Virus record (IMG/VR): IMGVR_UViG_3300027600_000098
Coordinates: 1-28,642 of that record
Strand: one strand, 5' to 3'
Length of the DNA stretch: 28,642 nucleotides
Source of the DNA: a virus
Part shown: positions 2,825-25,940 of the stretch, in pieces
How positions within the stretch are numbered: position 1 is the stretch's first letter
How the letters are laid out: each line of letters starts with the position of its first letter
The notes under the pieces: model-generated
Databases searched by the model: none
What the model saw: only the letters and a program-made list of their open reading frames with translations
What the model was told of the DNA's origin: nothing
Program-made: the position numbers and the translations under genes

Positions 2825-3430
2825 TTATCCTGCATAAAATATATGATCACCAATTTTAGTTACTCTACGAAGATTCCAACCTGGACTTACATAGTCGGCA
2901 TGGTAGAATAGAACATTTTTTCCTAATACGCCATGATTAGCCCCATCGAACAATACCTTTTCAGCCACTCTTTTGGCTTGTGCGTATTGTTGCGCACTGC
3001 GCACACTCTTCTTTCCTTCGCACACCCATGAGAACTGACACACACGTTTTGTTCTCTGGTATACAACGGAGCATACGGATTTAGGAAACTTGGGGCTATT
3101 TACCCGATTGATAGTGACAGCAGCAACGGCCAATTTGCCTTGAGTAGACTGGTTACCAGCCTCATAATAGATATTGTCTGCGAGACACTTCAATTCTCTG
3201 TTGTTTGCCAGACGAATATTTTGTGTCTGGATTCTTTGTTGTGTTACTTTACGTTGTTGTTCTTGAGCATCTTCTTTGATGTCCTGGATTACTTCTCCAA
3301 CGCCGAGGGAATATTCCCTTGCTTCTCTTTCGATGGCAGTTTCAGCATATGAATTAATTCCATATAAACTATAACTTAATAGTGTAATAATCGAAAGAAA
3401 CTTGAAAAACTTCTTATTAAAGGAAGTCAT
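2825..3430 (-). CDS. SleB-type cell wall hydrolase, probable exported endolysin
   Basis: 201 residues. Residues 1-30 form an N-terminal basic and hydrophobic segment ending SYA-ET, a plausible signal peptide. Residues 30-75 are a charged linker, probably coiled. From about residue 80 comes the hydrolase_2/SleB domain: LADNIYYEAGNQSTQGKLAV with the glutamate expected to be catalytic, AAVTINRV, VCSVVYQ, and CQFSWVC. The fold cleaves peptidoglycan glycan strands in spore-cortex and phage enzymes. A signal peptide would allow Sec-dependent export and holin-independent lysis (inference). GGAAATAAG precedes the ATG. The gene is isolated from the tmRNA by a strong terminator and leads into the methylase-like gene. 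Confidence 0.85.
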   Translation of the reverse strand: MTSFNKKFFKFLSIITLLSYSLYGINSYAETAIEREAREYSLGVGEVIQDIKEDAQEQQRKVTQQRIQTQNIRLANNRELKCLADNIYYEAGNQSTQGKLAVAAVTINRVNSPKFPKSVCSVVYQRTKRVCQFSWVCEGKKSVRSAQQYAQAKRVAEKVLFDGANHGVLGKNVLFYHADYVSPGWNLRRVTKIGDHIFYAG

Positions 3431-3659: not shown

Positions 3660-3704
3660 TTATGCGGCTAGCGCATATCCTGCAAAGGCAACGTTATCGT
3701 TTGC
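3660..3704 (-). other. tmRNA proteolysis tag frame: ANDNVAFAGYALAA-stop
   Basis: Fourteen codons starting with GCA (3704) and ending with TAA (3660) encode ANDNVAFAGYALAA. The ANDN start and ALAA end are the hallmarks of proteobacterial, especially alphaproteobacterial, ssrA tags; the hydrophobic LAA end is what ClpXP and related proteases recognise. The resume codon follows an A-rich segment, as in other tmRNAs. Confidence 0.92.
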
Positions 3705-3785
3705 ATTTACGTTTAGTGGCACTTTGCCAAGCAATCAGTCTCGAACCGCCCTATTACACGAAAATCGAATTCCATGGTCACCCCC

Positions 3786-3873
3786 ATCATCTACACAGCG
3801 AGCCAAGTCGGACATCGTCACCTATGACTCAGCTGGGTTGCGATCCTTGCCACGTCATGGTCTACTGTGTAGA
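3786..3873 (-). other. Intervening segment of the permuted tmRNA, removed by processing
   Basis: An 88-base spacer joins the CCA end of the acceptor half to the first G of the coding half. A perfect 10-bp inverted repeat (3865-3874 with 3789-3798, ATCTACACAG / CTGTGTAGAT) prolongs the acceptor stem, so the precursor folds as a long hairpin that holds both ends together for nuclease trimming. The final base of this stem overlaps the CCA triplet. Confidence 0.75.
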
Positions 3874-3942
3874 TGGTGGAGGTGCGGGGAGTCGAACCCC
3901 GGTCTTTCCGCCTTTATTGTTGATTGTCATCAACTGATATTT

Positions 3943-3973
3943 TATTTATATACTAGTTTGCTTTGGAAGTCAA
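3943..3973 (-). promoter_or_regulatory. tmRNA promoter: sigma70-like, overlapping a T4 late motif
   Basis: On the minus strand TTGACT (3973-3968), a 17-base spacer and TATAAA (3950-3945) form a near-consensus sigma70 promoter. The predicted start near 3938 coincides with the first base of the acceptor piece. The same -10 reads TATAAATA (3950-3943), the T4 late consensus, so the RNA could be made by host-type and late polymerase complexes alike. Confidence 0.75.
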
Positions 3974-14660: not shown

Positions 14661-15220
14661 TTAAATCCCACCGCCATGTATCTATAAAAATGTCCGCACT
14701 TCAGCATACCTGCATACTGTGGATCTTTAATACTGTTGATTGTTAAGAATTCTTCTAGATTATCAGCAATACGAACATGCTCAGGATTAACTAGATTATT
14801 TCCTTGCACGATATATTTAGTCCCCGTAGGAATGGAGTTCCACCAAGCATCATAAACTTCTTGTGTCACATGTTCGGAACTGGTATTGATAACTAAATCG
14901 GGATATGGATAATTTAGTGGCATACCATTTCGCATGTCGTGCTGACGGAATGTGATATCGTGATAGCACTCATCGATAGCAGCAAATACCTTTTTACATT
15001 CAGAGTCGATGTCCGTGGTTAGAATTTTCGCATCAGGAAACTTGTGGGCAATAAACTGTGCAAGAACTCCGTACCATCCACCAAAAATTACAATAGAGCT
15101 ATCAAGAGGAGTTACATGTTCCAGTAACCATTTCTTACTTTCGATCTGACTATCCCAAAAGTTCTCAGAAAATCTGTATGCATTTTCTGGATTATTACGG
15201 ATATATTGCATCCATAGCAT
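14657..15220 (-). CDS. Class I SAM-dependent methyltransferase-like protein
   Basis: About 187 residues from the ATG at 15220; a GTG at 15241 is also possible and neither has a strong ribosome binding site. It opens with IRNNPENAYRFSENFWDSQI, then motif I is degenerate (SSIVIFGGWYGVLAQFIAHKF), followed by the acidic end of strand 2 (TTDID) and DLVINTSSEHV, where a conserved NT/NP-type strand 4 would lie. Proteins of this form in T4-like marine phages are annotated as methyltransferases. The target may be a small molecule or a product of the following radical SAM enzymes. It is the first enzyme of the operon. Confidence 0.75.
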   Translation of the reverse strand: MLWMQYIRNNPENAYRFSENFWDSQIESKKWLLEHVTPLDSSIVIFGGWYGVLAQFIAHKFPDAKILTTDIDSECKKVFAAIDECYHDITFRQHDMRNGMPLNYPYPDLVINTSSEHVTQEVYDAWWNSIPTGTKYIVQGNNLVNPEHVRIADNLEEFLTINSIKDPQYAGMLKCGHFYRYMAVGFK

Positions 15221-15976: not shown

Positions 15977-16146
15977 TGTCTACATCTATTCACGATCAGG
16001 AACTCGATGAGCACTTCGGTCGAGTTGAAAGCGAACTCAACACACAAGAAGTAACAGAAACTCCTGTTGTGTTTTTCCGATTCAACGAGGAAAAGGACAA
16101 CCCACTACTTACTTGGCCGTGGCACGGTAAACCCCATCGAAGTTAG
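15976..16146 (+). CDS. Small phage protein overlapping the cyclase gene end (56 aa)
   Basis: A 56-codon frame starts at the A of the preceding TAA (TAATG coupling) and ends with TAG at 16144-16146. It is acidic at first (HDQELDEHFGRVESELNTQE) and ends with WPWHGKPHRS. The last 38 bases run antisense through the 3' end of the cyclase gene. Coupling and promoter support translation; the tail may be an accident of a lost stop codon. Function unknown. Confidence 0.6.
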   Translation: MSTSIHDQELDEHFGRVESELNTQEVTETPVVFFRFNEEKDNPLLTWPWHGKPHRS

Positions 16147-18160
16147 CAGGAGGTTCGCCCTCCATGCGCTCTAGCATCATGTCATAGTAATTTACCAACT
16201 CTCCTTGCCAGCACTTCTTTAAGTCGCTGGCAAACTTTTTAGCAACTTCCCAGTTTCCGCTACGGTAAAATCCTAAGAATTTCTTATGTTGTAATTCGCC
16301 AGCAGCATCAAAGAACGGGAATGCTGTATATATTCTAGCAGGTTCTGTCTTACCCTTCACAGCAATCAGATCAAGTTCTACTACTTGGTATACATCCCCA
16401 ACCAATTCGGCAGTTTGCGGTCCGAGGACGAGTTTGACTCCATAAGGTTTGGATTGACCTTCCAGACGAGCAGCCAGATTAACGCCATCACCCAAGCAAG
16501 TATAGTCAAAACGCTGAGTGCTGCCCATATTACCAACAACCACAGTGGCAGTGTTAATACCAAGACCCATCCCAAAAGCGGGCACACCTTCTCCTTTAAT
16601 TTCGTCATTGAAAGTCTCCAAATCTTTTAGCATCTGAAAGGCAGTTCTTACTGCATCTAACGCATGTTTATTATTATCCAACGGTGCATTCCAGAATGCC
16701 ATCTGAGCATCGCCGATATACTTGTCTAGTGTTCCCTTGTTCTCAAGGATTGCTCTTGTCATCACTGTCATGTAGCGATTCATAATCTTTGTCAGACCTT
16801 GAACATCTTCTCCGTAGTGTTCCGAGATAGTTGTAAAACCACGAACGTCTGTGAACATAATCGACAGTTCTCTAGAGTCACCACCAAGTGTCAGAAGTTC
16901 TGGTTGTCTTTGTAACTGAGCAACGAGATCTGGTGACAGATAGGTTCCGAACTGTTTCTTAATTTGCTGCTTCTGTAGATATTCAGAAATATACTTCGCG
17001 GTAAAGATGTGAATGTAGATAAGAGCAATAGCAAATATGTTAAATGTTACATCGAACAGAATACCTTTGCTTGCGAACAGATAAACAGGTAGATAGAAAT
17101 ATCCACCGAGTAAAACAGCAATATAAATTATAGAGAATTTAAAACGCGAAAGAATAATCAATGCCAGAGCAAGACCAAGAAAAGCCGCAAGATCCGCAAG
17201 TTGACTCCACACAGGAATCGACACAGAGTCTCCATTTATCAGAGTTTCAAGAATACTCGCCTGAAGGACGTGGGGATGTTGCGCACCTGATGGAGTCGCT
17301 ACAGGGTTCGCAATTCCAGCAGCAGTTACGCCAAGAATTACAATTTTCCCATCAAGACGAGGAATATCAGAACCTAATTCAACAGATGGAAATACGTAAT
17401 TGGGATTAATGAACGTTCTTCCATATTCATCTGTTTTAATGGTTTCAAACGAAGGAATACGTAATGCCTCAACTCCCGTCTGATTTATCTTCGCTTGATA
17501 CGAAGGATCTCCAGCAGCAACACGCAGCATCTCTAGGGCAAATGCGGGATAGTATTCGCCAGATGATTGCGCTAGAAGAGGAACTCGCCTTACGACCCCA
17601 TCAGTCTCAGGTAGGGTTGATGTTATCCCAACACCGACAGCGGCTTCTTGAAGAGATGAGATATTACTTAGAACGCATGGATATTGAGGAAGAAATTCGG
17701 TTGCTTCTCCATCGCCGACTACGGCAACGCCTGTTTTCCGAATTGTCGCACTTGCCCGTGAACAAGAGTCGCTTACCGTCTGACTGAGAACAACTGGATA
17801 CTGATTTAAGGTATCCGCAAGAACTCGATCAGTCCCCATCCGATCAGACTCAGGCATAAGTATAGTGCTACCAACAAGAGTAGCCCCTCTAGAATAAATG
17901 TCGCTAATAATTTGAGCATGGACCTCACGTGGAAACGGCCACTGACCATATTTCTCAATTGCTTTCTCCCCAATATTAACAGTTACAATTTGTTCAGATT
18001 GCGTCGGTGAACCGAGCATCAAATAATCATAAAACTTCAATCTTGTGGATTCAACCAAGTATGGGTTTGCTAGTTTTACTGTTAACAATACCGCAAAAGT
18101 AATCAGTGCCAACCATGGCGAGAGTAAAACTTTTTTAGTTTTTTGTATAAGAGTATCCAT
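16109..18160 (-). CDS. CHASE2-domain class III adenylate cyclase, membrane bound
   Basis: 683 residues. One transmembrane segment (about 15-33) is followed by an extracytoplasmic CHASE2 sensor (about 37-315, with VTVNIGEKAIEKYGQWPFPRE and LDGKIVILGVTAAG), three transmembrane segments (about 318-338, 343-364, 370-388), a short helical linker and a cyclase domain (about 425-615). All key residues are visible: metal aspartates D438 (IMFTDVRGF) and D484 (YIGDAQMAF), purine-selecting K480 and T554 (FDYTCLGD), and transition-state N561 and R565 (GVNLAARLE). The K/T pair predicts ATP as substrate, so the product would be cAMP. It is the last gene of the curli-type operon and overlaps the previous gene by 26 bases. 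CHASE2 cyclases occur near FecR-domain genes in proteobacteria; a viral copy is striking. Confidence 0.95.
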   Translation of the reverse strand: MDTLIQKTKKVLLSPWLALITFAVLLTVKLANPYLVESTRLKFYDYLMLGSPTQSEQIVTVNIGEKAIEKYGQWPFPREVHAQIISDIYSRGATLVGSTILMPESDRMGTDRVLADTLNQYPVVLSQTVSDSCSRASATIRKTGVAVVGDGEATEFLPQYPCVLSNISSLQEAAVGVGITSTLPETDGVVRRVPLLAQSSGEYYPAFALEMLRVAAGDPSYQAKINQTGVEALRIPSFETIKTDEYGRTFINPNYVFPSVELGSDIPRLDGKIVILGVTAAGIANPVATPSGAQHPHVLQASILETLINGDSVSIPVWSQLADLAAFLGLALALIILSRFKFSIIYIAVLLGGYFYLPVYLFASKGILFDVTFNIFAIALIYIHIFTAKYISEYLQKQQIKKQFGTYLSPDLVAQLQRQPELLTLGGDSRELSIMFTDVRGFTTISEHYGEDVQGLTKIMNRYMTVMTRAILENKGTLDKYIGDAQMAFWNAPLDNNKHALDAVRTAFQMLKDLETFNDEIKGEGVPAFGMGLGINTATVVVGNMGSTQRFDYTCLGDGVNLAARLEGQSKPYGVKLVLGPQTAELVGDVYQVVELDLIAVKGKTEPARIYTAFPFFDAAGELQHKKFLGFYRSGNWEVAKKFASDLKKCWQGELVNYYDMMLERMEGEPPANFDGVYRATAK

Positions 18161-19589
18161 TACATGGTCCAGTTGTGCATGTTATTTCCATTTTCGCAGA
18201 GTCGGTGGCAGTCAAGTTATTTTGTGTGACAGTTACACCGATTCCAGGACTATTTAGTAAAAGTTGAAATTGCTTTGCAAAAGCACCTATTTGAGTAACA
18301 GATGCAGTAACTCCACCGAATGGTGCGCTGATATCTAAAAAGTGGTTAGCACTTCCTTGTTGTAAGGTACTGATATTATTAGAGTTTCCTAAAGCATTGA
18401 TAAACAATGATTTTCCTCCAGCATCTTTTTGTTGTGCTGAGATTTGATTGCCTAAACCATTAGTGATTATCTCGGCATATTTGCTGCCTTGTTGTTGTGT
18501 TAAGGAGACTACGTTGTTATTACCAGTAACTGAAACTTCTGCCAAGTTCTTACCGATTGGAGTTGTTGTCGTTCCTTGGTTGATAGTAACACTGTTGCCG
18601 CTGCCATTAATCGTCATTGCTTGCGCACCATTCACGCCACGAATTTGATTCTGCTTAGAGAACTGTTCGATGTAAACAGAATTACTAGAACCAGTTACGT
18701 TGAGGTAAATGGAGTTTTGCGTAATCGCATTTGTTTGATTAATCTTCAATGATTGATTGGCACTAATTGCTGCCAATGGATATGTCGGAGAAGGAGGTTC
18801 AGGCGCAGGAGGTGGTGGGGCAGAAGAACCTGCGTTTGGTTCGACAGGAGTAAACGTTGCTCCATTCAGCGAGGTTGTGCCTTGCATCTGATCGATAAAC
18901 AGAATTGGTGACAATGCGGTATCACCAAGATTGAACGAAGCGAATCCTAGAAGATAATTACCATCGGCAGGAACTGTGAAGACTGCGACTTGCCAACCAG
19001 TAGCGCCGTAAGATCCCACAGAATAGTTACCAGTGCCTTCGTTTGTAAATCCAAGCAGCGCAAAATTTTGAATTTGCCCATTAATCGTTGGAGTTCCTGG
19101 ACCACCAGTTAATGTAATCATTGAACCATCATTGTATGGAACATAATCGGTTGAAACATATTGCCAAGCATAACTATATGTCGTACCTGCTTGTAGAAAT
19201 ATTGTCCTACTAATCGAAGTTGCATTGGTAGGATTCATATTACCATTTGCGTAGATGGTATTTCTAATAGAGGTAATTGTGGAACCTGTCAATCCCAAAG
19301 TAGTCATCGCTCCGTCAAAACTAGGAGAACCGTCGCCTGCTTGTAGAGAGACCATGTATGAACCATATGGAGTAACAGTCCAGCACTTGCCGTCACCTGG
19401 ACAGTAGTTAGTCATACCAGTTGTAACTTGTGCACCAGAACCACTATCGCTCCAAGAAGTTCTTGCGGTAGTTGAACCGTTGCTCACTGTCCAACCAGTA
19501 TAGTTACCATTCTCAAAACCGTAGTTTGTAACTTGCGCGAATGCTGGGATTGTGAAAAATAATAGAAATAGAGCGATTAGTTTTTTCAT
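18135..19589 (-). CDS. Secreted protein with N-terminal lectin-like domain and C-terminal curlin repeats
   Basis: 484 residues. A signal peptide (MKKLIALFLLFFTIPAFA) is followed by a beta-rich domain from about 20 to 245 beginning VTNYGFENGNYTGWTV, the opening of carbohydrate-binding or PEP-CTERM-type jelly rolls, then a proline linker (SSAPPPPAPEPPSP). Residues 275-480 hold about eight Asn/Gln-rich repeats such as SSNSVYIEQFSKQNQI, GSGNSVTINQG, GNNNVVSLTQQQGSKYAEII and LGNQISAQQ, resembling curlin strands. The protein could join an amyloid-like fibre through the repeats and display the lectin-like head. The ATG shares ATGA with the FecR gene stop. Exported through CsgG is an inference from context. 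Confidence 0.8.
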   Translation of the reverse strand: MKKLIALFLLFFTIPAFAQVTNYGFENGNYTGWTVSNGSTTARTSWSDSGSGAQVTTGMTNYCPGDGKCWTVTPYGSYMVSLQAGDGSPSFDGAMTTLGLTGSTITSIRNTIYANGNMNPTNATSISRTIFLQAGTTYSYAWQYVSTDYVPYNDGSMITLTGGPGTPTINGQIQNFALLGFTNEGTGNYSVGSYGATGWQVAVFTVPADGNYLLGFASFNLGDTALSPILFIDQMQGTTSLNGATFTPVEPNAGSSAPPPPAPEPPSPTYPLAAISANQSLKINQTNAITQNSIYLNVTGSSNSVYIEQFSKQNQIRGVNGAQAMTINGSGNSVTINQGTTTTPIGKNLAEVSVTGNNNVVSLTQQQGSKYAEIITNGLGNQISAQQKDAGGKSLFINALGNSNNISTLQQGSANHFLDISAPFGGVTASVTQIGAFAKQFQLLLNSPGIGVTVTQNNLTATDSAKMEITCTTGPCNGYSYTKN

Positions 19590-20731
19590 CTTGCACCTGT
19601 TTCTTGTATCACAGTGATATTACCCTGTGGTCTACCCGTTCCAGATGTTGTCCACTTATCGTCCATAAAGTTATAGGCATCCACTAATCCGTTTTGAACA
19701 GATACGACTTGCGCTTCCGTTCCTTTTTCTAACCAGATAGTAATTGCCTGTTGTTTATCATCCGACAATCGAGTATACACCCAACCAACCTGGACATTCT
19801 TTTTGAATGTTGGTGATACATTAGTATAGATTGTTTCTGTTGGTTTGCTACCTTCATTAAATTCAGCAAAAACGTCTAGTAGTTCTTGAGGTGTTGCTGG
19901 ACGAAGCATAGCAACCGTAACTTGTTCTACGCTATCATTTGTTCCAGCGTCTGGGTCTTTGTTATCATCCGATGCTGCTTTAGAAGGATTGGTAAACTTC
20001 TTTAAACTATCTCTAGCAAGTTGAAGCAAACTTTGACCGTCATCTGTTTCCAGCGGAACGATTTGAACATTGTTATCCAACGCCTTCATCAAAGGATTGA
20101 TAACTACTGGTGGAGCAGGAGGAGCAAAGTTGTTTTCTACAACTGTTGCTTGAAATGGTTGGTTTAACGTAACTACGCCAGATGCTGTGATGACATCAAT
20201 TGCCCCATTGGGACAGTCCGCAGTTTGTTTTGTGATGTCTAATTCGTTGTAGCATTCGGGAACCAGCACGACCGTAGAACGACCTGCCTCATCAACCGAC
20301 ATAACGAAGTCTGTGCCACGAACTGCGATAGTGGCAGTTGGTGTGCGAATGTTTACGCCTCGTGGGTTTGTTTTTGCGACTTTGCCTGACGCATATCTAA
20401 CTGTTCCAAGAGCAACTCGTAACCCGAGTTTGCCTTTTGATTTCCCTCCACCATCATACACAAAGTCATCCACAAGAAGTCGCGAGTTTTCTGTAATATT
20501 AACTGTAGTCGAGTCATTAAATGTAATCCTAAATCTACCTTGAGAGTTGGTAGAAATTGTGTCCATCTTTTCTACGCCAGCACCTTTAGATGCTACTGTA
20601 GTCTTGGCGCCACGCTTAATAGCACCACCTCCTCTGAAATCTGTTATCGACCCAATACCAGCAAAGGCAGGAGTCGATAACAGAAAAATCAGTAGAAGAT
20701 TAGTGACCAGTTTTGATATTAAACGTGCCAT
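19586..20731 (-). CDS. Secreted FecR-domain protein
   Basis: 381 residues from the ATG at 20731 (the longer GTG start adds four residues). A signal peptide ends near STPAFA-GIG. The FecR core is visible: GRFRITFNDSTTVNITENSRL, LRVALGTVRYASGK and NIRTPTATIAVRGTDFVMSV, followed by VVLVPECYNEL. FecR domains in the periplasm sense or bind envelope ligands, but here there is no transmembrane anchor, as in the stand-alone secreted type. A proline patch (FAPPAPPVV) and a C-terminal region of unknown fold follow. It lies between the curlin-like protein and the lectin-like protein and just upstream of the cyclase, so it may be a matrix or sensor component. Two cysteines (CYNEL, DCPNG) may form a disulfide. 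Confidence 0.88.
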   Translation of the reverse strand: MARLISKLVTNLLLIFLLSTPAFAGIGSITDFRGGGAIKRGAKTTVASKGAGVEKMDTISTNSQGRFRITFNDSTTVNITENSRLLVDDFVYDGGGKSKGKLGLRVALGTVRYASGKVAKTNPRGVNIRTPTATIAVRGTDFVMSVDEAGRSTVVLVPECYNELDITKQTADCPNGAIDVITASGVVTLNQPFQATVVENNFAPPAPPVVINPLMKALDNNVQIVPLETDDGQSLLQLARDSLKKFTNPSKAASDDNKDPDAGTNDSVEQVTVAMLRPATPQELLDVFAEFNEGSKPTETIYTNVSPTFKKNVQVGWVYTRLSDDKQQAITIWLEKGTEAQVVSVQNGLVDAYNFMDDKWTTSGTGRPQGNITVIQETGAR

Positions 20732-21473
20732 TTGATCCCACACTGTTAATATTAATCACAGTCTCAGAAACACCATACTGTTGCGTTGTTACAGTGTTTA
20801 GTGAACCTGTTAGATTTACATATAGTGAGTGACCGAATGTTCCGCCAGTACCAGTTTGTGTAACATCAAAGTCATTGTAGTTGCCTGTCACCAGAATTGT
20901 TTGTGACGCATTTGGTGATAGCGCATCCATGTTGATTGTGTTATTGTTGCCGTTGAAATCCATAGAGTTGCGGATATTAGCACCCGAACCACGGAAAACA
21001 AACGAGTTGTTATTACCAGTGAACTTGGCATTCATGTCGAGTTGATTACATGAGGAATCAGTAACTTCAGTTCCACAACGGATAGTAGCAGTGTTCAAAT
21101 CGCCAATTTGACGAATTGTTACATCGGCGATTCCTTGTGCTCCTGTGTCGGATACGACACCCATATAAAGTTGGTTTCCATTGCCTGTCTGTATTGCGAT
21201 AACGCTTTGGTTATCACCACGTAGGTAAACAGGATCAAGAGTGGAACCGATAACGTTAGCAGTGCCAGTTTGAACGACATTAACATCTACGTTACCCCCT
21301 TGTTGATCAATGTATACCTTATTTGTTGTTGCAACAGTATTCGCTTCTGTTTCATTTGGCGAAGTTGTTACAATTGCTGGAGGAGTTGGTGCTGTTGGTA
21401 GCACTGTTTGTGCAGTCACTGATGTTCCATAACAAAGAGCAGCGCCAACTAATAAAAACTTACTTAGTTTCAT
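20700..21473 (-). CDS. Secreted curlin-repeat protein (CsgA/CsgB-like)
   Basis: 257 residues from the ATG at 21473, chosen because a signal peptide follows it directly (MKLSKFLLVGAALCYGTSVTA). After a Pro/Thr-rich stretch come about seven beta-strand repeats rich in N, Q and G: VYIDQQGGNVDVNVVQTGTAN, QSVIAIQTGNGNQLYM, ADVTIRQIGDLNTATI, FTGNNNSFVFRG, FNGNNNTINMD, VTGNYNDFDVTQTG and LTGSLNTVTTQQYG. Spacing and Asn/Gln ladders fit curlin, the amyloid subunit of curli, though the repeats are less regular than in E. coli. It starts 14 bases before the end of csgG. It is likely the main secreted amyloid-like subunit. Confidence 0.82.
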   Translation of the reverse strand: MKLSKFLLVGAALCYGTSVTAQTVLPTAPTPPAIVTTSPNETEANTVATTNKVYIDQQGGNVDVNVVQTGTANVIGSTLDPVYLRGDNQSVIAIQTGNGNQLYMGVVSDTGAQGIADVTIRQIGDLNTATIRCGTEVTDSSCNQLDMNAKFTGNNNSFVFRGSGANIRNSMDFNGNNNTINMDALSPNASQTILVTGNYNDFDVTQTGTGGTFGHSLYVNLTGSLNTVTTQQYGVSETVININSVGSNGTFNIKTGH

Positions 21474-22284
21474 TTGTTGTTTCCTTTTGTTTGAATCTCC
21501 ATAGACTCTTTCTTTCACCATCCTTGATTAACTCAACAACGGCCGTTTCTATGGCAGAACGTATCGCATAACTACCTGCTTCATTACTTGTTTGTTGTCC
21601 ATCAAATTCAAATGCTTTAGTCGCCATGTCGAAAAATGTGAATGCAGTTACCCCCTCGGAAGTAGAGAGAACAGTTTTCTCTACAGTAACCGAATTGAGA
21701 ACTTCGCCAGTCTGGACAGAAACTAGACGAAGACTAACTGTAACTTGGTCTTGTGTATATTGCTGGTATGGACCGACGCCAAGGAATCTAGCACCAGTAC
21801 CACCAGTTTTAATGTTAGAGTTATAATCAATGATACCACCTTCAATGATGATACCTGCAACCTTTAGTGGTGGAAGAGGTTCAGCAGCTTCTCCTGAAAT
21901 CTGTTCGCGCATCTGTCGAACAAGTTGGCGTTCTTTAATCAGCGAGTCAATACCGACACGCTCCACAGGAATGAACCACTTGCCACCTCCTGTATCTTGT
22001 AATGTCTTAATCAAATACGCATCTGCACCTTGAGTTACCGCAGTTGAGAAACTTGCAAGAGTTGAAGATGGTTTACGTTGACCAGTTCTATCAGTAAACG
22101 AATACAGCGCGATAGGAATTGGTTGACCATCTAACTCAGGAAGATTCTTGAATAGTTTTGGATTTGCAAAACGCTTGACTTCCGCGTCATCTCTAAAGAG
22201 ATATGATTGGTTGGCAGTAGGATGAAGCGCACCAACACAACCAGAAAGAACAAGCAAAAGCGGAAGGAGAACTAATTTTTTCAT
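21460..22284 (-). CDS. csgG: CsgG, outer-membrane curli secretion channel
   Basis: 274 residues, against 277 in E. coli. A lipoprotein signal with lipobox LSGC puts the lipidated cysteine at residue 16. Conserved blocks follow: IPIALYSFTDRTGQRKPSS, STAVTQGADAYLIKTLQD, WFIPVERVGIDSLIKERQLV, GGIIDYNSNIKTGGTGARFLG and DQVTVSLRLVSVQTGEVLNS, each with a clear match in E. coli CsgG. The protein forms a nonameric beta-barrel pore that releases unfolded curli subunits. The gene follows csgF with a nine-base gap holding AAGGAGA. Keeping CsgG and CsgF together indicates selection for working secretion in the host. Confidence 0.95.
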   Translation of the reverse strand: MKKLVLLPLLLVLSGCVGALHPTANQSYLFRDDAEVKRFANPKLFKNLPELDGQPIPIALYSFTDRTGQRKPSSTLASFSTAVTQGADAYLIKTLQDTGGGKWFIPVERVGIDSLIKERQLVRQMREQISGEAAEPLPPLKVAGIIIEGGIIDYNSNIKTGGTGARFLGVGPYQQYTQDQVTVSLRLVSVQTGEVLNSVTVEKTVLSTSEGVTAFTFFDMATKAFEFDGQQTSNEAGSYAIRSAIETAVVELIKDGERKSLWRFKQKETTNETK

Positions 22285-22293
22285 AACGTCTCC

Positions 22294-22743
22294 TTAGAAT
22301 GCGAACGTAGCAATAGGAACGACAACAACCGTAGTATTGCCATTCTTATCGACTACTGTTAGAGTAACTTCAGTACCAGTCTTGACGTAACTCACGGAAT
22401 TACCATCAAGATTAAATGTTCCTGTGGTTGCTGTTCCGCCTTCTGCGAACAGATTGTTTGAAAGTTGTGTGGCAAGTTGAGCATAAACCTGAGAGGTAAA
22501 CAATGCCATGAATTTAGCAAGAGGAGTATTTGCTGCCTCTGCTCGTATCAGTGCGGCTTTTGCTGCTTCTGCATCTTTGATTGCCTGTTCCCGCGAACGC
22601 TCTTGCGCATCGATTGACTGCACATGCGAAGACCACCCATACCCAGTAAAGGAAGGTGATTTAAACTGTTGAACAATTGGGTCCGCAAATGCAGGACTAC
22701 TTAGACTTAGTAGCACCAGGAGCATCGTCGCTCGTTTTAGCAT
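22294..22743 (-). CDS. csgF: CsgF, curli secretion gating and nucleation factor
   Basis: 149 residues with a signal peptide ending SSPAFA-DP. In E. coli the mature N-terminus (QFRNPNFGG) plugs the CsgG pore; here it is QQFKSPSFTGYGWSSHVQSID, a clear counterpart. A helix with DAEAAKAALIRAEAAN follows, then FMALFTSQVYAQLATQLSNNLF and a C-terminal beta part (GNSVSYVKTGTEVTLTVVDK, NGNTTVVVVPIATF) as in CsgF. AAGGA lies eight bases before the ATG. Its start overlaps the tail of a possible 45-residue frame upstream. CsgE is not seen in the window and may be supplied by the host or dispensable. Confidence 0.88.
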   Translation of the reverse strand: MLKRATMLLVLLSLSSPAFADPIVQQFKSPSFTGYGWSSHVQSIDAQERSREQAIKDAEAAKAALIRAEAANTPLAKFMALFTSQVYAQLATQLSNNLFAEGGTATTGTFNLDGNSVSYVKTGTEVTLTVVDKNGNTTVVVVPIATFAF

Positions 22744-22834
22744 CTTTCTCTTCCTTTTTGTTTTTGTTATCCGAAGAAAAATTTAAGTCAAAGGTAAATA
22801 CTTTAAGGATCTCAATCTTTAGATTTATTGTCAT
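22697..22834 (-). CDS. Possible 45-residue protein overlapping csgF
   Basis: A 45-codon frame begins inside the end of the 88-residue membrane protein gene (GAGG about nine bases upstream) and ends with TAG inside csgF, 47 bases past its start. The protein opens MTINLKIEILKVFTFDLNFS and continues with a Lys/Glu-rich tail. Beta-strand opening plus charged tail recalls small proteins of T4-like marine phages next to membrane-protein genes. The double overlap fits the compact style of the operon, but overlap alone is weak evidence. Confidence 0.45.
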   Translation of the reverse strand: MTINLKIEILKVFTFDLNFSSDNKNKKEEKDAKTSDDAPGATKSK

Positions 22835-23078
22835 GGTTATGATCCTCTTTTATTTGCAAAATTACGCTCACCTTCTGGTTCAATCTTATCAAGTCATTAT
22901 CAAGCATACGAACACGGTCAATCAACGCAATTAAAATAACATTAGTTTCGCCAATCAATGGCATCAGTTTATCTGTTACGAATTTATAAATGAACCAGAC
23001 AAAATATCCCATGCCGACAGAAGCGACAATAGGAAATCCATACTGCTTTACAAGTTCCGCAATGATAGAAGGATCCAT
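22812..23078 (-). CDS. Small membrane protein, paralogue of the preceding one (88 aa)
   Basis: 88 residues with one hydrophobic segment (about 14-33, GFPIVASVGMGYFVWFIYKF), a middle part MPLIGETNVILIALIDRVRML and a charged tail (KEDHNHDNKSKD). It has the same plan as the 95-residue protein encoded just upstream: short N-terminus, QYGFPI or VGFPI before the membrane segment, then a helix of L/I/V with N or D and R. The two are diverged tandem copies. Size and topology would allow a holin or an inner-membrane helper for the export system. Start and stop share a base with the previous gene (TAATG). Confidence 0.75.
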   Translation of the reverse strand: MDPSIIAELVKQYGFPIVASVGMGYFVWFIYKFVTDKLMPLIGETNVILIALIDRVRMLDNDLIRLNQKVSVILQIKEDHNHDNKSKD

Positions 23079-23365
23079 TAGTCCTTCCTTGCGTCATTCT
23101 TCCCGTCGGCTCGTGCAATTCTATCTAAGTCTGGTTTCAGACCCAAAGCGGAACTTACAACAGCATCAACGCGAATAATATCATGGTTCATGGTCTTCAC
23201 TCGGTTATCTAACCCCATGATAATACCCTGCATTCCCTTGAGCGCCTTTACAACACCCTCAAGAATGTAATTGATGACAAAATACACGAAGACACCACCG
23301 AGCAAGGCCGCTGCAATGGGGAATCCTACATCTCCAATAAGTTTAAATATCGTATCGTATGACAT
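23078..23365 (-). CDS. Small T4-like phage membrane protein (95 aa)
   Basis: 95 residues: DVGFPIAAALLGGVFVYFVI makes one membrane segment (about 12-32), followed by an amphipathic helix (VKALKGMQGIIMGLDNRVKT) and the tail SSALGLKPDLDRIARADGKN, an ending I recognise from T4-like cyanophages where the function is unknown. It opens the operon that contains csgF, csgG and the cyclase. TATAAATA lies eight bases before its ATG and there is no Shine-Dalgarno sequence, so a nearly leaderless late mRNA is suggested. A holin is one candidate function. Confidence 0.78.
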   Translation of the reverse strand: MSYDTIFKLIGDVGFPIAAALLGGVFVYFVINYILEGVVKALKGMQGIIMGLDNRVKTMNHDIIRVDAVVSSALGLKPDLDRIARADGKNDARKD

Positions 23366-23373
23366 ATCAATTC

Positions 23374-23385
23374 TATTTATAAATA
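23374..23385. promoter_or_regulatory. Bidirectional T4-type late promoter (TATTTATAAATA)
   Basis: The palindromic 12-mer holds TATAAATA on the plus strand (23378-23385) and on the minus strand (23381-23374). On the plus side it is 22 bases before a gene with AAGGAAGA; on the minus side it is eight bases before the start of the curli-type operon. Both readings equal the T4 late consensus, which agrees with the presence of gp33. Confidence 0.75.
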
Positions 23386-23407
23386 AACGTAAAGAAGGAA
23401 GATAAAA

Positions 23408-24142
23408 ATGGCGGGTGCATCAGCAGAAAGACAAGAAAATACCTTTGTTGACTCGATAAACAATGCTGTGAAGAAAAATCCAGCTGGAATTAAGATAAAA
23501 GCCGGTTCCCAGACTATTTCTGGAGTAATTAAAGCGGAAAAGTTCACCGGAAGACAAGTTTCCGGCTCTGAACCCTATATTGATGTCAATTTACATCTGG
23601 CCGACGGCAAAACTACAGTAGGTATCTCTATGAAAGGCAACACTGCACCCTCATTAGCGGGTGGCGGACTGAAAGGCATCAATTTAGCCGTACCTGGTCT
23701 TGCAAATAAGTTCATGAAAGCGGTTTTAGAGCATTTGAAGAAAAAAATAAAGCCGGGAGACAAAGTTCCCGACTGTTATGGTAAGATTAGTGACCAACAT
23801 AAGGTAAAAATCGTTGTTGGTAACAAAGATATGGGTGGTCCAATCGATTACATGTATATTGGCAACATGACTCCGGTATCAAACTATAACAAAAGCACCA
23901 ACACGCTGGCTTTTAACAACGGGAACTTCTATGAAGCAACCAAATATGCTAAGTCACATGACCTATATTTCAGACTTCGTGCTAGAAGAGAAGACCAAGT
24001 GTTTGATCCAACTGCAAAAGACAGTATGAACGTGCCTAAAATCTATTCTAAGTCACCAAGTAAAGGGGACTCCGCCGGTAGAATAGTTGTTACCGACAAA
24101 GTCCCCAATAATGCATTACAAAATGTAGTTAATATAGTCTAA
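23408..24142 (+). CDS. Conserved phage protein of unknown function, late expressed (244 aa)
   Basis: 244 residues starting MAGASAERQENTFVDSINNA. AAGGAAGA precedes the ATG and a plus-strand TATAAATA lies further upstream. It shows VISMKGNTAPSLAGGGLKGI-like text around residue 75 (GISMKGNTAPSLAGGGLKGI), a basic stretch LKKKIKPGDKVPD and a mixed alpha/beta C-terminal half. Proteins with the ASAERQE opening are found in T4-like marine phages, sometimes as virion components. A restriction-endonuclease-like fold is conceivable (an acidic-residue-x-K arrangement is not clearly visible), but I do not assign it. Its TAA overlaps the stop of the convergent glycosyltransferase-like gene by three bases. 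Confidence 0.8.
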   Translation: MAGASAERQENTFVDSINNAVKKNPAGIKIKAGSQTISGVIKAEKFTGRQVSGSEPYIDVNLHLADGKTTVGISMKGNTAPSLAGGGLKGINLAVPGLANKFMKAVLEHLKKKIKPGDKVPDCYGKISDQHKVKIVVGNKDMGGPIDYMYIGNMTPVSNYNKSTNTLAFNNGNFYEATKYAKSHDLYFRLRARREDQVFDPTAKDSMNVPKIYSKSPSKGDSAGRIVVTDKVPNNALQNVVNIV

Positions 24143-25077
24143 ACGTAATCTTCTACGTCTAGTGACATCGAATACTTAGTATCAGGCGGCAGTGTAATCA
24201 GCTTCATACCGTAATTATTGACACCTTCTGGTAGCACAACACCGTCTTTTAACTTCAACGTGTTCTTCTTGAAGGGTGTGTAGTCAACATAATGATGCCA
24301 ACGACCATAACGCCAGACAACACGTGCCACATCAGGGTGCATATCAGCCAACATCTGTGACTTATTGATGGTACCCTTCTCGTGGTAACGCTTGCCTTCG
24401 ACTTCTTCGCCCTCTTCCAAGAATTCTTTGTGATAGAACTCTGCGGTGTTACCACCCTTGATGGTCTGTGTAGCTACTTTACCCTGCAAGAAAGCATTGA
24501 ACTGCACGGTGCAGTCACCATCTTTCAATACACGCAAACAAATATCGGTATCTTCATTGTAACGACCGCGCCAGCGATGCTTACAATCGTTACGGATTAG
24601 CAATGTTGAGTAGATACGAGTGTTTGCGACATATGGAGGATACTTCTGGTTAGGTGCAATGAAGAACCGATACTGAGGACCAGCAATGTAGAGGTTTTCA
24701 TATCGGTCAAAGAAGTCTTCCATTACTGAGAAGAACACACCAGACTCCACGCGAATACGTTCGTTGCGATGAAGGCGATAGAAGTCTGAAATGTTATCGT
24801 CTAGAACCCAGTGCGCTTCTGCACCGATGCTGATAGAATGGTCCCATGCCCAGTTTCTTGCACGACCAGGACCATCACCATGATTAGAGAACGGTGCAAC
24901 AAGCAGAGTGACACCAGAAAGTCCGAAATTGGTTAACGCATCTTTATAGGGCTGCAAGTCTTGTGGTTCGATGATGATATAATGCGGCACTCTCATACGA
25001 GAAAGCGACCGCGAGGTAATCATACTTTCGGCACGACCCTTAGAAACTATGTAAACGGGATACTTAGGGTTAGTCAT
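24139..25077 (-). CDS. GT-A glycosyltransferase-like protein (TET-associated glycosyltransferase type)
   Basis: 312 residues. The start PVYIVSKGRAESMITSRSLS and PHYIIIEPQDLQPY, then HGDGPGRARNWAWDHSISIG, HWVLDDNISDFYRLHRN with the metal-binding D-D-N, YIAGPQYRFF, RWRGRYNEDTDICLRVLKDG and FLQGKVATQTIKGGNT are the blocks of a family common in T4-like phages that I recognise as TET-associated glycosyltransferases. Members of that group have been reported to add sugars to 5-hydroxymethylcytosine in phage DNA. Neither a TET/JBP dioxygenase nor a hydroxymethylase is in this window, so its acceptor is open. The ATG directly follows the stop of the 287-residue gene. Confidence 0.8.
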   Translation of the reverse strand: MTNPKYPVYIVSKGRAESMITSRSLSRMRVPHYIIIEPQDLQPYKDALTNFGLSGVTLLVAPFSNHGDGPGRARNWAWDHSISIGAEAHWVLDDNISDFYRLHRNERIRVESGVFFSVMEDFFDRYENLYIAGPQYRFFIAPNQKYPPYVANTRIYSTLLIRNDCKHRWRGRYNEDTDICLRVLKDGDCTVQFNAFLQGKVATQTIKGGNTAEFYHKEFLEEGEEVEGKRYHEKGTINKSQMLADMHPDVARVVWRYGRWHHYVDYTPFKKNTLKLKDGVVLPEGVNNYGMKLITLPPDTKYSMSLDVEDYV

Positions 25078-25940
25078 TAAAATAAATCCTTCAAATTGCC
25101 TCTTTGTGCTGAACCAAGTGCTTCACTCCAGCGAATTTTGCTTTTGCCAAAGTCACGAAATCCACCTTTGATACGCTCACCAGTCTTATTGTCATATAAA
25201 ATTGTAAAAATACCAGGAAACATTGATTCAACAATCTTGTGATCTCGCTGTGTATTCTCATACGTCTGTTCATCCCACACAGTAGAAGTCATATTCGCTT
25301 TGTGGACACTGTTATTAAAGAATATAAACTCTTGGCTGACACGATTGCCATAACCATGAGCCAATAAACTCAAAAGAAAAACAACATCTTCTGCTACCTT
25401 GACACGAGTTAGTTCAAGTTCGGGTAGCAAGTCTTTGAAATCAGTACCATTTACAAAAATTGCACTACTAAGAGAAGAGTTGTTAATATAAGAACTATCT
25501 CGTGGTGGGTTCTCGGCATGACCAGGACCACATACTGTCACGGTCGTATCGTCTAACCACTTACTATATAGGTGAAACATCTCGAAGATATCTTCGTCTG
25601 TAGCTTTACGCTTTGACATTTCCATATTAGACACGCCTGTCCAGTATTTGGCGTTACGCCGACCGAATGTAATGTCATCATCAATGACTGCATACTTCAT
25701 GTTCTGACCAGCCTCGTAGATAATCTTACGTGTCTTTGGTAGACAGTAATAGTCAGACAGATTAATCTCTTCTGGCAGCACCAGATAGTCGCATGGGTAT
25801 TGATACTTGTCACGCTCCCACGCTTGCACAACCATAGTCACTTTGCTCTTCAACTCTTCGGGAAGATTATTGTATGTTATTTGGTTATCCGCACGATTAA
25901 CTGTAGGGATGAAGATACGTTCAATCACTCTTCGACCCAC
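25077..25940 (-). CDS. Second glycosyltransferase-like phage protein
   Basis: 287 residues. IFIPTVNRADNQITYNNLPE, then YAVIDDDITFGRRN with the D-D-D metal motif, SSLSSAIFVNGTDF, RVKVAEDVVFLLSLLAHGYG and an R/K-rich end. The order (IP-x-x-x-R opening, strand ending in DDD, then a VAEDV-type acidic motif) follows the neighbouring GT-A-like protein, so it is probably a remote relative or partner. Assignment rests on these motifs only. The end of the gene shares a base with the start of the next and the start overlaps the 202-residue gene by 16 bases. Confidence 0.65.
   Translation of the reverse strand: MGRRVIERIFIPTVNRADNQITYNNLPEELKSKVTMVVQAWERDKYQYPCDYLVLPEEINLSDYYCLPKTRKIIYEAGQNMKYAVIDDDITFGRRNAKYWTGVSNMEMSKRKATDEDIFEMFHLYSKWLDDTTVTVCGPGHAENPPRDSSYINNSSLSSAIFVNGTDFKDLLPELELTRVKVAEDVVFLLSLLAHGYGNRVSQEFIFFNNSVHKANMTSTVWDEQTYENTQRDHKIVESMFPGIFTILYDNKTGERIKGGFRDFGKSKIRWSEALGSAQRGNLKDLF

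Follow-up and report, generated by a model that had tools for sequence, protein, structure and literature searches.

A palindromic T4-type late octamer between divergent phage genes as a predicted two-way promoter for a curli operon

We report on a stretch of viral DNA of 28,642 nt (hereafter the window, which is the whole record), a fragment of a T4-like phage with homologues of gp32, gp59 and the late transcription coactivator gp33, the last encoded at 2029-2304 on the minus strand (Pfam PF16805 and phrog_254). A minus-strand block running from 23365 to 16109 comprises two small holin-like genes followed by genes for CsgF, CsgG, a curlin-repeat-like protein, a FecR protein, one more protein and a CHASE2-cyclase. 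The first gene (23078-23365) encodes a 95-aa protein (phrog_18771, and a weak match to the holin family phrog_4898) and the second (22812-23078) its 88-aa paralogue (phrog_18771); the Pfam search returned no family for either. That the first product is holin-like is weakly suggested by the one weak PHROG match together with the endolysin partner of its relatives in L130, L131 and L136, the endolysin family having been matched for L130 only. A cell wall hydrolase gene (2825-3430, minus strand; PF07486), a candidate lysis enzyme, lies distant from the holin-like genes.

The remaining genes of the block, all on the minus strand, encode CsgF (22294-22743; PF10614, E 1.5e-16), CsgG (21460-22284; PF03783, E 6.5e-53), a curlin-repeat-like protein (20700-21521; PF07012, E 6.5e-4, narrowly short of the curated cut-off), a FecR-domain protein (19586-20743; PF04773), a curlin-like protein (18135-19589; without a Pfam match and named by position, from the gene order of HTVC008M and Melnitz) and, last, a CHASE2-adenylate/guanylate cyclase (16109-18160; PF05226 and PF00211). 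The window thus has what we take to define a phage curli operon, csgF and csgG together with curlin-like and FecR genes. Such operons are described in the available text of reports on pelagimyophages (PMC7029224) and on phage Melnitz (PMC9004378), and HTVC008M and Melnitz have the same order as the window: two small genes, csgF, csgG, curlin-like, FecR/hypothetical, curlin-like/hypothetical and cyclase. In these two phages, however, the genes just upstream are co-directional with the operon, whereas in the window the operon and a plus-strand gene diverge at a palindromic late octamer.

This plus-strand gene (23408-24142) encodes a putative 244-aa phage protein with phage homologues, a weak PHROG match and no family in the Pfam search. 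One homologue, in Pseudomonas phage PA5oct, adjoins structural proteins detected by MS, and a second is present in Synechococcus phage Sf-FS3. Next to it, at 24139-25940 on the minus strand, are two TET-associated glycosyltransferase-like genes (PF20691), and radical SAM and carbamoyltransferase genes are present elsewhere in the window; together these might constitute a DNA-modification set.

The 42-nt gap between the divergent ORFs (23366-23407) holds, at 23374-23385, the perfect 12-nt palindrome TATTTATAAATA, which consists of two T4-type late octamers TATAAATA with four bases in common, one on the plus strand (23378-23385) and one on the minus strand (23374-23381). An earlier note on this DNA had claimed that one 12-base palindrome supplies the late consensus on both strands and lies between divergent genes; both points hold, with an exact TATAAATA on each strand and the flanking ORFs at 23408-24142 (plus) and 23078-23365 (minus) diverging around it. 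The same note had proposed a search for further copies. None is present in the window (one copy observed, 0.01 expected from dinucleotide shuffles), while copies were recovered in relatives and in T4. A gap this short and A/T-rich might be thought to yield such a 12-mer by chance, but under a first-order random model of the gap 0.03% of draws contained the 12-mer and 4% contained one octamer on either strand.

The two ends of the palindrome are not equivalent. The plus-strand ATG is 22 nt away, and its leader contains a Shine-Dalgarno-like AAGGAAG (23395-23401, read from the sequence), whereas the minus-strand ATG is just 8 nt away with no room for a leader, a feature that the earlier note does not mention. 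The T4 late promoter is an 8-bp box that begins with a T at -13 and lies about one helical turn 5' of the start (PMC2988020, available text). With the octamer in this register (-13 to -6), transcripts would begin at approximately 23391 on the plus strand and 23368 on the minus strand. Opposed starts 7-25 bp apart around a symmetric element are what we regard as a bidirectional promoter; here the symmetry is present and the predicted distance is 23 bp. As to the machinery, gp33 is encoded in the window itself, while homologues of the annotated late sigma factor (gp55) and sliding clamp (gp45) of Melnitz are encoded by a close relative, G001, whose junction is 93% identical to that of the window and carries the same palindrome.

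The first operon gene has at least 593 relatives; to follow the operon side of the junction we used 80 of them, which formed 54 junction clusters (36 close and 18 more distant), and scored divergence by the longest upstream ORF reaching within 250 nt. The full palindrome is present in 9 of the 54 clusters and all nine have a divergent upstream ORF, compared with 5 of 43 judged clusters among the 45 without the palindrome (two were unjudgeable; Fisher 5e-7). At the operon the palindrome was thus seen only where genes diverge, and in none of the tandem junctions among the clusters; the tandem operon relatives keep just TATAAATA-N5-ATG. The divergent partner varies: it is the 244-aa protein in the window, L002 and L003, a 354-aa protein in L090, a 304-305-aa protein in L091 and L110, a 70-aa protein in L121, L126 and L135, and an endolysin in L130, L131 and L136. 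A similar 23-nt divergent leader is common to the window, L002, L003, L090, L091 and L110, that is, to loci with 244-, 354- and 304-305-aa partners, so promoter and leader seem to have been retained while the coding partner was changed.

We rejected a count of nine origins for the nine palindromic clusters, since six changes on the tree are needed and six loci have one leader in common, the latter leaving about three clearly separate contexts. The tree was built from 32 of the 56 rows, after removal of those in which no second gene had been parsed (L130, L131 and L136 among them), and at least three of its six changes of the palindrome label are forced by well-supported (starred) branches; L110, with the palindrome, is sister to L111, which is tandem and without it (support 99/95).

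On the plus side, the palindrome is kept in L002 and L003 (relatives of the plus-strand gene, 97%), while L004 and L005 (63%) have the plus octamer only, 29 nt 5' of the ATG, and L006 (59%) is without an octamer at the corresponding place. In L004 the gene upstream of the plus-gene relative is in tandem, and its stop overlaps the octamer. Each half is therefore kept alone where one direction suffices, in the tandem relatives of the operon and in L004 and L005. Alternatively, only one half in the window could be active; the near-symmetry of TATAAATA would then have produced the other octamer incidentally, and the other gene would be read from elsewhere. TATAAATA is already half-symmetric, so that four extra bases make the palindrome, and HTVC008M has a separate octamer directly before csgF, so that the curli genes need not start at this junction. 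Symmetry would, however, be equally cheap at tandem operon junctions, where the palindrome is missing; both halves lie at functional distances from start codons, no further TATAAATA occurs in the window between 3950 and 23374, and a search of the gap for a sigma70-like promoter found none. We consider activity of one half alone unlikely.

Across 164 loci (2.59 Mb), all 8 distinct TATTTATAAATA sites are two-sided, compared with 4 of 42 sites of the other 63 A/T-only palindromes; a Fisher value of 3e-14 for this comparison counts both palindrome halves and is not our main figure. Because these loci had been chosen via the operon, IMG/VR was also scanned, independently of it, with a 14-mer (the palindrome with C and G flanks) and a control palindrome of the same composition. 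Among the matches listed, 23 of 80 late sites were two-sided before the removal of near-copies, some of these calls depending on doubtful small ORFs. After filtering, which removed near-copies and edge sites (24 of 80 late and 11 of 80 control, among the matches listed), the late palindrome lay between divergent ORF starts at 17 of 56 sites and the control at 1 of 69, again among the matches listed. The partners at two-sided sites include head closure with baseplate tube cap (tail tube cap), baseplate hub, tail tube and tail sheath genes.

T4 has one exact 12-mer (116450-116461), between the divergent baseplate genes 26 (minus) and 51 (plus), with a Shine-Dalgarno site before gene 51. Scarlato et al. 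(1989, in Virology) reportedly mapped overlapping divergent late promoters between these two genes. As in the window, the identical 12-mer occurs once and between divergent genes; the start codons, however, are 21 and 17 nt beyond the T4 palindrome compared with 8 nt on the operon side of the window, and the gene content is different. The 12-mer is absent from the genomes of KVP40, S-PM2, P-SSM2, RB49, 44RR, HTVC008M, Melnitz and Sf-FS3, and our comparisons brought up no cultured phage that has exactly the junction of the window. Recurrence of the palindrome in T4 and where other genes diverge, with the excess over the control, leaves chance as an explanation that we hold to be extremely improbable. 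The comparisons instead indicate that divergent late-gene junctions of T4-like phages repeatedly carry putative symmetric late promoters.

The perfect dyad symmetry might also suit binding by a dimeric protein, such as a DsbA-like A/T binder, in which case the palindrome would be an operator and not itself a promoter; the A/T-rich binding sites of T4 DsbA overlap late promoters (PMC2988020, available text). An operator would not account for single halves being kept with tandem neighbours at promoter distances, nor for the promoter-like behaviour of the octamer across the loci, where 101 of 155 TATAAATA sites are 60 nt or less before an ORF start, and we regard it as very unlikely. On the combined evidence, TATTTATAAATA is very probably a symmetric T4-type late promoter, usable in either orientation and giving rise to both transcripts. 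The proposal of the earlier note, a single late site acting in both directions, is in this way supported by comparison: halves are kept singly, the palindrome occurs only at divergence, and T4 has a copy.

In the mechanism that we infer (start sites, two-way use, mutual exclusion, leaderless translation and whole-operon read-through alike), late RNA polymerase, in which the host core carries gp55 and gp33 and is tethered to the gp45 clamp, would bind the palindrome either way. In the plus orientation the transcript would start at about 23391 with a 17-nt leader carrying the Shine-Dalgarno-like site; in the minus orientation the operon transcript would start at about 23368, roughly 3 nt ahead of the ATG, and be effectively leaderless. 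The octamers overlap by four bases, so that one polymerase at a time could be accommodated. From the tight packing of its genes, the whole operon would be read as a single 7-kb transcript from the palindrome.

The operon-side spacing is consistent with this leaderless start, by which we mean a 5' end that coincides with the start codon or lies only a few nt from it, in the absence of a Shine-Dalgarno site. In 22 of the 36 close clusters an exact octamer ends 8 nt or less before the ATG, in 17 of the 36 at exactly 5 nt, and with one mismatch allowed 27 of the 36 have a spacer of 4-8 nt. Six palindromic clusters have an operon spacer of 22-29 nt, which makes leaderlessness and the palindrome separate features; three close clusters have no octamer, and the 18 distant clusters mostly have longer, leadered spacings or are without an exact octamer. 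Since the bases between octamer and ATG vary, it is position and not sequence that is conserved. An octamer at -13 to -6 followed by N5-ATG would start transcription at the A of the ATG, so the 5-nt spacer of the 17 clusters fits the T4 register. The window has a spacer of 8 nt instead of the usual 5, and the predicted start at 23368 gives a 3-nt leader; the operon-side late mRNA would then be effectively leaderless.

Similar spacings are found elsewhere in these genomes. Octamers 60 nt or less before an ORF number 24 of 32 in T4 (none closer than 13 nt), 14 of 21 in HTVC008M (five at exactly 5 nt, csgF among them), 17 of 25 in Melnitz (two at 5 nt) and 15 of 24 in G003 (two at 5 nt), while control octamers at 4-6 nt gave 2, 1, 1 and 0 sites in T4, HTVC008M, Melnitz and G003, respectively. 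Late octamers exactly 5 nt before an ATG are thus a class in HTVC008M, Melnitz and G003 that is absent from T4, and they might mark leaderless late genes in general. The csgF gene of HTVC008M (L516) has its own octamer exactly 5 nt 5' of the ATG, so that late transcription of the curli genes can begin past the two small first genes. At L296 (6484-6495) palindromic late octamers are 5 nt from the ATG on both sides, one partner being a radical SAM protein, and this palindrome is possibly leaderless in both directions. We found no report of leaderless late transcripts in T4-like phages; in the available text of PMC9004378 the word occurs in the reference list only. Late promoter prediction was reported as unsuccessful for pelagimyophages (PMC7029224, available text).

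The layout is known but rare, with a precedent in T4; what is new is the predicted near-leaderless operon side, which together with the recurrence at changing partners makes it a variant worth mapping. The bacterial bidirectional promoters described by Warman, Grainger and colleagues (PMC12825309 and PMC10268837, available text) likewise have a pseudo-symmetric -10-type element used in two orientations; the palindrome differs in being built of the octamer of the late sigma gp55, with no -35 element, and in its predicted starts 23 bp apart, compared with usually 18 bp in E. coli (PMC10268837, available text). The gp45 clamp activates late transcription in T4 in an orientation-dependent manner (PMC2988020, available text), which suggests that fork polarity might conceivably choose the direction at the palindrome. 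Taken further, and as a speculation by analogy to which we give little credence, the palindrome could be a direction switch: the clamp-loaded strand would pick either the plus gene or the leaderless membrane/curli operon, each event would give just one of the two outputs, with fork polarity balancing them, and the leaderless message would be favoured when initiation factors are short late in infection. With the palindrome as a symmetric late promoter, the phage curli operon gains a predicted late, effectively leaderless start, and the site would offer a natural template for how clamp orientation picks direction at a symmetric promoter.

A late octamer is also present at the tmRNA of the window: on the minus strand, 3943-3950 lies 8 nt before a permuted tmRNA (3660-3935, minus strand; RF04321), and its predicted start, 3937, is a near-match to the tmRNA 5' end. 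For Melnitz, an early promoter is described upstream of the tmRNA (PMC9004378, available text). In G003 an octamer (14736-14743) falls within the beginning of the tmRNA that ARAGORN predicts, which has the same tag peptide.
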